Below are positions 47,161 through 50,588 of a DNA stretch of 64,000 nt, one piece after another. The stretch covers positions 62,001 through 126,000 of the forward strand of contig JACRME010000008.1 of NCBI GenBank assembly GCA_016235045.1. Direction: 5' to 3'. The stretch is from Nitrosomonadales bacterium (lineage in GTDB: Bacteria; Pseudomonadota; Gammaproteobacteria; Burkholderiales; Gallionellaceae). The notes under the pieces are model-generated. The model saw nothing but the letters and a program-made list of their open reading frames with translations, ran no database searches and was not told the DNA's origin. Position 1 is the first letter of the stretch; each line of letters begins with the position of its first letter. Both the position numbers and the translations under genes were made by a program.

Positions 47161-47721
47161 TTATGCTATTTTTGCAATTCCATTCAACAAGTTGAGCACG
47201 CCTTGCAGGGCAATTTGCACCGATTTCGCACGCACGGCATCGCGGTCTCCGGAAATCTGATGGCAGGCCGCCTGCACGGTATCGTTGCTCGCCCATGCGA
47301 ACCAGACCATGCCCACCGGCTTCTCCGGCGTACCGCCGGTGGGCCCGGCGACGCCGCTCACCGACAGCGCCACTTGGGCGCGGCTGTATTGCAGCGCGCC
47401 GTCGGCCATTTCGCGCACGGTCTGCTCGCTCACCGCCCCATGTTGCTCCAGCGTGTCCGGCGCGACGCCCAGCATCTCTTCCTTCGCGGTGTTGGAGTAG
47501 GTCACAAAACCGCGGTCGAACCAGGCCGAGCTGCCGGAAATCATGGTGACCGCCTGCGCCACACCGCCGCCGGTGCAGGATTCCGCCGTCACCAGCGTCA
47601 TACCGTGTTCCTTGAGCGCATTTCCCACCTGTTGCGCGAGCAACCGCCCGGAATCCTGTCCGCTTGCCGCAGTCACAGTCGCTGTTGGACGTGCTTTTCT
47701 TTTTGCCCGCTTCATCTTCAT
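47161..47721 (-). CDS. pncC: Nicotinamide-nucleotide amidase (CinA C-terminal family)
   Basis: A 186-residue protein of the CinA C-terminal domain. The catalytic Ser lies in TAESCTGGGVAQ; other signatures are YSNTAKEEMLGV, AVSEQTVREMA and SVSGVAGPTGGTPEKPVG. PncC deamidates NMN to NaMN in the pyridine nucleotide cycle. The first 20 residues are basic and not conserved. Its ATG overlaps the metZ stop by 4 bases, so it is expressed with metZ and would fall under the same riboswitch. Confidence 0.92.
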   Translation of the reverse strand: MKMKRAKRKARPTATVTAASGQDSGRLLAQQVGNALKEHGMTLVTAESCTGGGVAQAVTMISGSSAWFDRGFVTYSNTAKEEMLGVAPDTLEQHGAVSEQTVREMADGALQYSRAQVALSVSGVAGPTGGTPEKPVGMVWFAWASNDTVQAACHQISGDRDAVRAKSVQIALQGVLNLLNGIAKIA

Positions 47722-48890
47722 AATCCCCTGGCCAGATCGTTTTGAATATCGATAAGCGCTTCCAGTCCCACCGCGATGCGGATCAGTCCGTCGCCGATGC
47801 CCGCCGCCGCACGCGCTTCAGGCGAAATGCGCGCATGGGTGGTGGTCGCGGGATGCGTAATTGTTGTCTTGGTATCGCCCAGATTGGCGGTGATGGACAG
47901 CAGTTTGGTGTTGTCGATCACCTTCCAGGCCGCCGCCTTGCCGCCCTTCACCTCGAAGGCCACGATACCGCCGCCGGTCTTCTGCTGCTTCGTCGCCAGC
48001 GCATGTTGCGGATGCGATTTCAATCCGGGATAGAACACGCGCGCCACGTTGGGCTGTTTTTCCAGCCATTGCGCCAGTTGCAGTGCGTTGGCGCTGTGCG
48101 CATCCATGCGCAGCTTGAGCGTCTCCAAACCTTTCAGGAACACCCAGGCGTTGAACGCGCTCATGGTCGGACCGGTGGTGCGCAGGAAGCCGTACACCGG
48201 CTCCATCAGTTTCTTGCTGCCCAAGACCGCCCCGCCCAGCACCCGGCCTTGCCCGTCGATGTATTTGGTGGCGGAATGGATCACGATGTCCGCGCCGAAA
48301 TCGAACGGGCGTTGCAGAATGGGCGTGCAGAAACAGTTATCCACCGCCAGCAAGGCGCCACAACCCTTCGCCACGGCAGAGATGGCTGCAATGTCAGAGA
48401 TTTCGGTGAGCGGGTTGGATGGCGTCTCCAGAAAGAACAGTTTGGTATTCTGGCGCACCGCCGCCTTCCATGCCGCTACATCGGTGGCGGAAACAAATGT
48501 CGTTTCCACGCCGAACTTCTTCAGCACGTTGTTGAACAAATTCACCGTCGAACCGAACAGGCTCTGCGACGAAACGACATGATCGCCCGCCTTGAGCAAG
48601 CCCATGCAGGTCGACAGGATGGCGGCCATACCGGATGACGTCGCCACGCATTGCTCGGCGCCTTCCAGCGCGGCCAGGCGTTCTTCGAACATGGTGACGG
48701 TGGGGTTGGTGAAGCGCGCATAGATGTTGCCCGGCTCTTCGCCGATGAAACGCCGGGCGGCCTGCTCGGCATTTTCGAAGGTAAAGCTGGACGTGAGGAA
48801 CAAGGCCTCGCTGTGCTCGTGGAACTGGCTTTGCACATTGCCGGCGCGTACGGCCAGCGTTTCCGGCTGGTATGAATTTTTATCCGCCAT
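47718..48890 (-). CDS. metZ: O-succinylhomoserine sulfhydrylase
   Basis: A 390-residue PLP enzyme of the cystathionine gamma-synthase family. The PLP lysine is in IHSATKYIDGQGRVLGG, with SSGMAAIL and DNCFCTP upstream. MetZ makes homocysteine directly from O-succinylhomoserine and sulphide. The ATG is chosen because AGGAG lies 6 bases upstream. The leader carries a SAM-II-type aptamer and a terminator, so expression should fall when S-adenosylmethionine is plentiful. The order purF-metZ-pncC-recA on this strand is partly a conserved betaproteobacterial arrangement. Confidence 0.94.
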   Translation of the reverse strand: MADKNSYQPETLAVRAGNVQSQFHEHSEALFLTSSFTFENAEQAARRFIGEEPGNIYARFTNPTVTMFEERLAALEGAEQCVATSSGMAAILSTCMGLLKAGDHVVSSQSLFGSTVNLFNNVLKKFGVETTFVSATDVAAWKAAVRQNTKLFFLETPSNPLTEISDIAAISAVAKGCGALLAVDNCFCTPILQRPFDFGADIVIHSATKYIDGQGRVLGGAVLGSKKLMEPVYGFLRTTGPTMSAFNAWVFLKGLETLKLRMDAHSANALQLAQWLEKQPNVARVFYPGLKSHPQHALATKQQKTGGGIVAFEVKGGKAAAWKVIDNTKLLSITANLGDTKTTITHPATTTHARISPEARAAAGIGDGLIRIAVGLEALIDIQNDLARGL

Positions 48891-48904: not shown

Positions 48905-48941
48905 ACAAAAAACCCGGAAAGCTTAGAGCCAAACCGGGTTT
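48905..48941 (-). terminator. Leader terminator between the riboswitch and metZ
   Basis: On the minus strand AAACCCGG pairs with CCGGGTTT around a 16-base loop, followed by six T. It begins directly after the aptamer and ends about 15 bases before the metZ ATG. Confidence 0.8.
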
Positions 48942-48998
48942 CCCTCGCTTTAGCTGCATTTATAACGCGCCCGCAAGCTGTTCCTCAAATCGGCGCAG
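48942..48998 (-). promoter_or_regulatory. SAM-II (metA) riboswitch aptamer
   Basis: Read on the minus strand, TGCGCCGATTTGAG opens a P1 stem (GCGCC with GGCGC). The 3' part is ATAAATGCAGCTAAAG followed by CGAGGG. GATTT after P1 and ATAAATGnAGCTAAA at the 3' side are the hallmark core of the SAM-II H-type pseudoknot. It sits in the metZ leader, the expected gene context. Confidence 0.85.
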
Positions 48999-49033
48999 GT
49001 GAAAAGTAGCACCACCCACCACAAGCCGTCAAC

Positions 49034-50560
<1,527 letters not shown>

Positions 50561-50588
50561 ATTTGCTTCTCGATTAAAGTTGACATGT

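Follow-up and report, generated by a model that had tools for sequence, protein, structure and literature searches.

Within the window, by which is meant the whole 64,000-nucleotide stretch of the Nitrosomonadales contig analysed here, metZ is preceded on the minus strand by a leader in which a SAM-II aptamer is followed at once by an intrinsic terminator, and the question which this arrangement raises is whether the aptamer governs the terminator and, if it does, which nucleotides carry the decision. The answer which we hold to be very likely, and which rests on predicted structures and their conservation, is that the SAM-II riboswitch would turn off metZ, and probably the pncC-like gene behind it, by premature termination of transcription at high SAM. 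We infer that SAM is the ligand, that the logic is OFF, that the antiterminator is the SAM-free structure and that pncC shares the control; the class and its general mechanism are already known, and the window holds a further member.

The assignment of the aptamer to its class was evaluated with the Rfam covariance model RF00521 (SAM-II), which, searched against the whole 64-kb window, returned a match at 48933-49006 on the minus strand with 36.3 bits against a gathering score of 36 (E 1.5e-4), leaving 0.3 bits to spare. Because this margin is thin, a hold-out model, R2, was applied, which consists of 58 aptamers, all from other families and none from Gallionellaceae. R2 gives the element (48943-49001, minus strand) 78.2 bits with an E value of 2.3e-23, which is rough because the calibration of the model was short, and its second-best place in the 64 kb reaches 13.5 bits. 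The covariance check is thus passed narrowly with Rfam and clearly with the beta-proteobacterial model. In an alignment of 69 of the 180 distinct aptamers (A2), hand-picked for spread, P1 is paired in 100% of cells and two of its five pairs are changed on both sides (six cells; GCGCC/GGCGC becoming GUGCC/GGCAC is one example), while the P2 pseudoknot is paired in 95.4% of cells, with four of six pairs that never vary and none with changes on both sides, and is too conserved to covary. The segments GAUUUG, UUGC and GCUAAA, which we take to hold the SAM contacts of SAM-II (crystal structure 2QWY), are present in the window and invariant among the 69 aligned relatives, an invariance that is partly by construction because the pattern used for picking loci contained GATTT, TTGC and GCTAAA. 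This core pattern recognised 196 of the 200 loci collected and missed L050, L131, L194 and L195; L050 has its match at another offset near a contig end, and in the other three GATTTG is replaced by GTTTTG, GAGTTG or AATTTG with GCTAAAG intact. Among the matches listed by the Rfam scans, which took in the window and the scanned relative loci, there is none to SAM-V. By its sequence and predicted structure, the element in the window is a SAM-II aptamer (Table 1).

Table 1. Features of the metZ leader and neighbouring genes, in window coordinates.
Feature	Position	Strand	Basis
purF (upstream context)	49034-50566	minus	Glutamine amidotransferase and Pribosyltran domains (basis of name)
Probable sigma-70 promoter	TTGACG 49032-49027, 18 nt, TACTTT 49008-49003	minus	sequence
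SAM-II aptamer, beta-proteobacterial form	48943-49001	minus	RF00521, R2, P1 compensation
Aptamer P1	GCGCC 48996-48992 / GGCGC 48971-48967	minus	sequence
Aptamer L1 GAUUUG	48991-48986	minus	sequence
Aptamer P2 5' strand AGCUUGC	48979-48973	minus	sequence
Aptamer P2 3' strand GCUAAAGCG, i.e. GCUAAAGC(G)	48954-48946	minus	sequence
GGG 3' of aptamer P2 strand	48944-48942	minus	sequence
Predicted antiterminator	AGCUAAA.CG 48955-48946 / CG.UUUGGCU 48936-48927, inner GG/CC	minus	MFE fold
Intrinsic terminator	48907-48942; lower stem 48942-48934/48917-48909; upper stem GGCU/AGCU	minus	fold
Terminator U-run	48912-48907	minus	sequence
Shine-Dalgarno AGGAG, outside aptamer and terminator hairpin	48900-48896	minus	sequence
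metZ, O-succinylhomoserine sulfhydrylase, 390 aa	47718-48890, ATG at 48890	minus	NCBIfam NF006003, 723.2 bits (cut-off 522); Pfam PF01053
pncC-like nicotinamide-nucleotide amidase	47161-47721	minus	Pfam CinA PF02464; TIGR00199 over cut-off

The leader most likely gives rise to an RNA that starts at or near P1, as suggested by a TTGAC box ahead of the aptamer: of 196 related loci, 173 carry TTGAC at a distance of 25-60 nt before GATTTG, compared with 2 of 196 shuffled stretches. A stricter promoter scan of the leader lists none. The start of the pncC-like gene, which scores 206.9 bits with NF002975, just below the cut-off of 212, overlaps the end of metZ by 4 nt (47718-47721), an overlap which suggests that the two genes are probably carried on the same transcript. 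Among the 14 metZ loci of the family with long flanks, a pncC-like gene is found downstream in 10, some loci stopping short of the gene, and a relative of purF is found upstream in 11.

The genes served by related leaders are those expected of the class. In 164 of the 196 loci the downstream gene is metZ (93) or metX (71), with neither in reach in the remaining 32, and the source genome itself has a second SAM-II copy (G000:C15:39904-39977, equivalent to L002 1501-1574) in front of metX. When the 32 loci are inspected by eye, the downstream frame of several begins like metH or metK; it is metK-like in the f14 loci L043, L059 and L123, and its start is metH-like in L054, L126, L139, L159, L163, L166, L169, L174, L178 and L189, which belong to several families. 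L043 also carries an SAH riboswitch at 2916-2994 (RF01057, 61.2 bits). In L023 a FMN_bind_2 (PaiB-like) gene at 1617-2237 follows the riboswitch, with metZ next at 2242, and a gene of the same type was seen by eye after the riboswitch in L021, L022, L029, L072, L084 and L086.

The distribution of the element depends strongly on the model used to detect it. At E <= 0.001, RF00521 matches 90 of 120 Gallionellaceae genomes, 115 of 250 genomes of the source's order (Burkholderiales) and 71 of 299 in the phylum draw, whereas the matches pass the Rfam cut-off in just 41, 43 and 61 of these genomes respectively; in the control genomes searched alongside family, order and phylum alike there is none (0 of 14). 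Model R1, which comprises 69 aptamers of the order, 11 of them from Gallionellaceae, matches 117 of the 120 family genomes and 195 of the 250 order genomes, tallies that are partly in-sample. Among the matches listed, RF00521 scores run from 26 to 53 bits in the order, and elsewhere in the phylum, where the set is taken to be largely alphaproteobacterial, they are mostly 46-88 bits with eight below 36. The loci collected include 60 of the matches listed from the family search and 80 from the order search, chosen mostly by rank; related sequences share ancestry, and counts across loci are not independent. One Gallionellaceae genome (G061) holds six matches to the beta SAM-II model, the other listed genomes holding one to four, and a leader of the same kind stands on a Sideroxydans contig (L237).

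The terminator hairpin, whose arms AAACCCGG and CCGGGUUU form nine pairs if the outer G-U is counted, has a computed energy of -16.8 kcal/mol (z -3.6), which none of 200 shuffles equals. A terminator with MFE below -8 kcal/mol lies within 200 nt in 183 of 196 loci, compared with 52 of 196 shuffled downstream stretches. Conservation of the stem was assessed in alignment A1, in which 92 family loci were reduced to 74 distinct platforms by removal of 5 odd terminator calls, 3 loci without metZ or metX in reach and 10 duplicates; the stem is paired in 91.7% of cells against a shuffled mean of 87.3%, and a single column pair, 23-54, which occurs as GC, CG, UA and UG, has an excess of cells changed on both sides (27 against a shuffled mean of 12.0). 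A simple terminator scan of the window does not list the 48942-48909 hairpin, probably because the scan is restricted to unbroken stems with loops of 3-8 nt. With these results most of what the initial annotation had read from the letters is confirmed, namely a SAM-II aptamer with all its pieces in place, metZ as the gene behind it, the overlap of pncC with metZ, and an intrinsic terminator following the aptamer.

That annotation had also supposed that the GGG after the aptamer might pair with the CCC of the terminator's 5' arm and so allow the ligand to decide termination. This pairing does exist in the predicted fold, but it contributes just 2 of 11 antiterminator pairs, and as the main switch it was set aside for a longer helix, AGCUAAA/UUUGGCU plus CG/CG, in which the P2 3' strand GCUAAAGCG (48954-48946) pairs with CGGUUUGGC (48936-48928), a segment of the terminator's 5' half. 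When the leader is ended before the terminator 3' arm, its MFE structure consists of P1 and this antiterminator, and the local antiterminator hairpin (48962-48922) has -14.0 kcal/mol and a z of -2.66, with 2 of 200 shuffles as good; the 79-nt shortened leader taken as a whole does not stand out from its shuffles (z -0.70, equalled by 44 of 200). In the MFE structure of the full leader the terminator is present and P1 absent (z -1.37), and the computed energies of terminator and antiterminator are close, the terminator being slightly more stable, with pseudoknots outside the folding model in both of these computations. In sequence and predicted structure, then, the leader contains a terminator and a mutually exclusive antiterminator which share the ligand-bound aptamer strand.

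The register of this antiterminator is conserved in the family: among the 74 distinct platforms 89.2% of cells are paired, as opposed to at most 52.7% when one strand is slid along the other, and 8-9 of the 9 pairs are kept in 70 of 74 platforms across several arm sequences. The 5' arm of the terminator is mostly CGGUUURGC before metZ and mostly CGCUCUAGC or CGUUUUGGC before metX; the metX copy of the source genome has a perfect 9-bp complement, CGCTTTAGC, of GCTAAAGCG inside its terminator, and L068, a metX leader with an unrelated terminator stem, has the perfect complement CGCUUUAGC elsewhere in its hairpin. Mismatches fall at G9/column 23 in 42 of the 74 platforms, the window included, and at A7/column 25 in 24. 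No antiterminator pair is changed on both sides and the shuffle control is equally empty (500 of 500), since the 5' strand is aptamer core, invariant in these rows, and covariation in the antiterminator is for this reason invisible.

Complementarity between a conserved aptamer strand and a terminator must be separated from what any terminator would offer, and real terminators from elsewhere were accordingly used as the control in place of dinucleotide shuffling of the 11-nt P2 strand, which was dropped because a strand of that length can be rearranged in few ways (p<=0.05 is reached at 23 of 183 loci when the P2 strand is shuffled and at 108 of 183 when the terminator half is shuffled). The control used 176 of the 196 platforms, excluding those with no terminator below -8 or with a terminator start beyond 45 nt. 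Capture of at least four of the six core bases is seen in 97.7% of the 87 family platforms compared with 22.0% of 1740 swaps, and capture of all six in 70.1% of the real platforms compared with 2.2% of the swaps to unrelated terminators. Of 125 terminators linked to SAM-II by a loose pattern, 41.6% contain a motif resembling UUURGC, as do 3.0% of 722 others. Two further measures were considered. A criterion of core or tail paired proved uninformative, as 70.9-79.5% of swaps reach it too, and pairing of the P2 5' strand CAGCUUGC, as a fourth strand, with the terminator 3' half finds no support in the duplex energies, -8 being reached by 7.2% of linked against 5.4% of other terminators, although AAGCT is present in 36% of the linked and 2.6% of the others.

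Outside the family other designs may have been adopted by some families. In the order outside Gallionellaceae 89 platforms capture the core in 44.9% of cases, compared with 19.2% for 1780 swaps, which is weaker support, and capture is seen in one or more platforms of 20 of the 29 families, where 200 rounds of swaps give a mean of 13.3 families and a maximum of 20. Among the phylum members elsewhere with a usable terminator, none of 23 captures the core; in their predicted folds it is the 3' side of P2a, the strand after the core, that pairs with the terminator 5' half. P2a itself is present in the phylum set (longest Watson-Crick run 4.76 against 3.38 when shuffled, n=29) and absent both from Gallionellaceae (2.14 against 2.21, n=92) and from the remainder of the order, f4 excepted (2.61 against 2.67, n=98). 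A P2a of 5 bp is reported for 60% of SAM-II members (PMC6061858); in the crystal-structure RNA it has 2 bp, and because it is so short there, P2a is not a defining feature of SAM-II.

Several smaller groups of loci have arrangements of their own. The six f4 loci (L045, L133, L135, L141, L144 and L190) have SAM-II aptamers without a terminator by the finder, and in five of them GAGG directly follows GCTAAA with an ATG a few bases on, whereas in L190 the motif is AAGG and the ATG lies farther away; this arrangement suggests that f4 has probably moved to translational control. In the f12 loci L130, L137, L143 and L146 the end of the aptamer runs into a GAGAAAT...ATTTCTC hairpin that overlaps the P2 3' strand and may be an antiterminator or competitor of a different design. 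Six of ten loci inspected (L124, L147, L162, L167, L170 and L175, of f5 and f21) contain a further pseudoknot stretch that resembles SAM-II (ATCGACAACTTGCGGGGCG ... GCTAAAGCG), about 95-350 nt downstream of where the first core begins; RF00521 leaves it unscored in L124, L162, L170 and L175, and by sequence the arrangement is likely a tandem with a second aptamer variant.

Under the proposed mechanism for the window, the RNA would begin just before P1, and its P2 3' strand would be contested between the P2 5' strand, its partner when SAM is bound, and the terminator 5' half, its partner when SAM is absent. With SAM, the P2 pseudoknot (AGCUUGC with GCUAAAGC) would close around the ligand and hold the P2 3' strand, which, being locked there, would leave the terminator hairpin free to form, so that transcription would end about 17 nt short of the metZ ATG. 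In the absence of SAM, GCUAAAGCG, no longer held, would pair with the nascent CGGUUUGGC, and the antiterminator would trap the terminator arm and permit read-through into metZ. A precedent for SAM-II termination at metZ is provided by Sinorhizobium meliloti, S. meliloti, whose metZ SAM-II is predicted to terminate and where an sRNA of about 100 nt is more abundant in complex medium (PMC9373788).

The same data must also be weighed against readings in which the aptamer does not act through the terminator. The aptamer could be real and the terminator uncoupled from it, a constitutive attenuator that yields a riboswitch-derived sRNA while SAM acts on translation or stability; the slightly greater stability of the terminator in the window would suit such an arrangement, as would the S. 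meliloti metA terminator, predicted to be unaffected by its SAM-II riboswitch, but for the metZ copy of that species coupling is predicted (PMC9373788), and the complementarity of P2 3' strand and terminator 5' half is conserved in Gallionellaceae, so that we regard an uncoupled terminator as unlikely. Control at translation, in which P2 would mask the ribosome site when SAM is bound, the mode of the metX RNA known from the crystal structure, has a counterpart in the six f4 loci without terminators described above, five of them with GAGG directly after GCTAAA; the AGGAG of the window, however, lies about 45 nt past the end of GCUAAAGCG and outside the hairpin, with a strong terminator between, and translational control is here quite improbable.

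Two other readings concern the aptamer itself. A SAM-II-like aptamer with a changed ligand, for example SAH, could account for the 36.3 bits of the window where the listed RF00521 matches elsewhere in the phylum are mostly higher, eight below 36 excepted, and there is a report of a spermidine riboswitch that arose from a SAM aptamer (PMC10853860). Against such a change stand the identified targets, which are metZ and metX, and the presence of GAUUUG, UUGC and GCUAAA in the window and 69 relatives, their invariance being partly by construction; we give it slightly less credence even than translational control. That the element is a chance resemblance next to an ordinary terminator is hardly credible; the Rfam score, at 0.3 bits above the cut-off, would allow it, but the hold-out model scores the element far above any other place in the window, and the element recurs before metZ and metX across the order. 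The reading preferred throughout is thus a SAM-II riboswitch coupled to the terminator through the P2 3' strand.

A SAM-II aptamer with a terminator before metZ is not in itself new, because the 2005 description of the class, which already noted putative terminators for many members (PMC1273637), the publication of SAM-II elements with terminators in Alpha- and Betaproteobacteria (PMC2258182) and the S. meliloti metZ riboswitch (PMC9373788) all precede it. The view in the initial annotation that SAM-II usually acts on translation does not hold up against the terminator-bearing members in print (PMC2258182); transcription is considered the level of control for the majority of members (PMC6061858), and the RNA whose binding is best understood is a small, probably translational one from the Sargasso Sea (PMC9373788). 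Experimental proof of SAM-II control was noted as lacking in 2007 (PMC2258182), and by 2022 SAM-II had been studied inside S. meliloti cells (PMC9373788). In titles and abstract openings, a body of text with subscription journals mostly outside it, no published description of an antiterminator formed by the P2 3' strand was found, and one may be in print elsewhere.

Comparison with named elements suggests that a single structure may have been described more than once. A novel metXZ element was reported in 2014 before metX and metZ in beta-proteobacteria, including Nitrosospira and Methylophilales (PMC4239095), the only paper among the literature searched in which 'metXZ' and 'SAM-II' occur together. 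It shares with the present leader a two-helix pseudoknot, then a terminator, upstream of metX or metZ, and differs in that its regions 3 and 4 are proposed as the antiterminator and that SAM_alpha is there reported only in Rhizobiales and Rhodobacterales. The metXZ element is probably SAM-II, because its taxa and targets fit the RF00521 and R1 matches; RF00521 matches stand before metZ in Nitrosospira sp. Nsp14 (L212, 32.1 bits) and Methylophilales bacterium HTCC2181 (L280, 29.4 bits), both below the cut-off. A Burkholderia sRNA, Bp2_Cand287, which lies upstream of methionine genes, was described in 2012, and metZ, metX and purF are named in the legend to the figure of its gene neighbourhood (PMC3521395). 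Its model, RF02424 (Bp2_287), overlaps SAM-II aptamers on the opposite strand in the window (48915-48995, plus) and in L043 (1483-1601, minus), L170 (75-233, minus) and L175 (87-257, minus), with scores among these four of 37.1, 33.1, 26.9 and 21.3 bits, all under the cut-off of 70, and it is probably, to judge from these overlaps, a model of the beta SAM-II leader built on the wrong strand. The strictness of the RF00521 cut-off may explain both the report of a new element in 2014 and the sRNA report of 2012.

Measured against the known systems, the leader shares with RF00521 SAM-II/SAM_alpha (the metA motif; PMC1273637) P1, the P2 pseudoknot, GAUUUG, CUUGC, GCUAAA, methionine genes downstream and the common occurrence of terminators, and differs in that Gallionellaceae leaders have no P2a extension and that the listed RF00521 scores mostly run lower in the order than elsewhere in the phylum. 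With the S. meliloti metZ SAM-II and its sRNA RZ (PMC9373788) it has in common the target gene, the post-aptamer terminator and the proposed OFF logic, that system being alphaproteobacterial; with SAM-V (PMC6061858) it has in common the pseudoknot core, SAM-V being translational. On balance we lean towards the view that the beta-proteobacterial SAM-II is a subfamily without P2a in which GCUAAAG serves as the antiterminator strand, one element that has gone under the names SAM-II, metXZ and, on the wrong strand, Bp2_287. Since the SAM-contacting GCUAAAG would double as the antiterminator strand, ligand and terminator arm would compete for the same nucleotides, and a conserved antiterminator made from the ligand-binding strand would offer a precise and easily mutated model of transcriptional SAM-II control. 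What is added here to the known systems is likely a modest mechanistic step, a specific, conserved, predicted antiterminator from the SAM-binding strand in Gallionellaceae, together with the probable merging of three names into one element.
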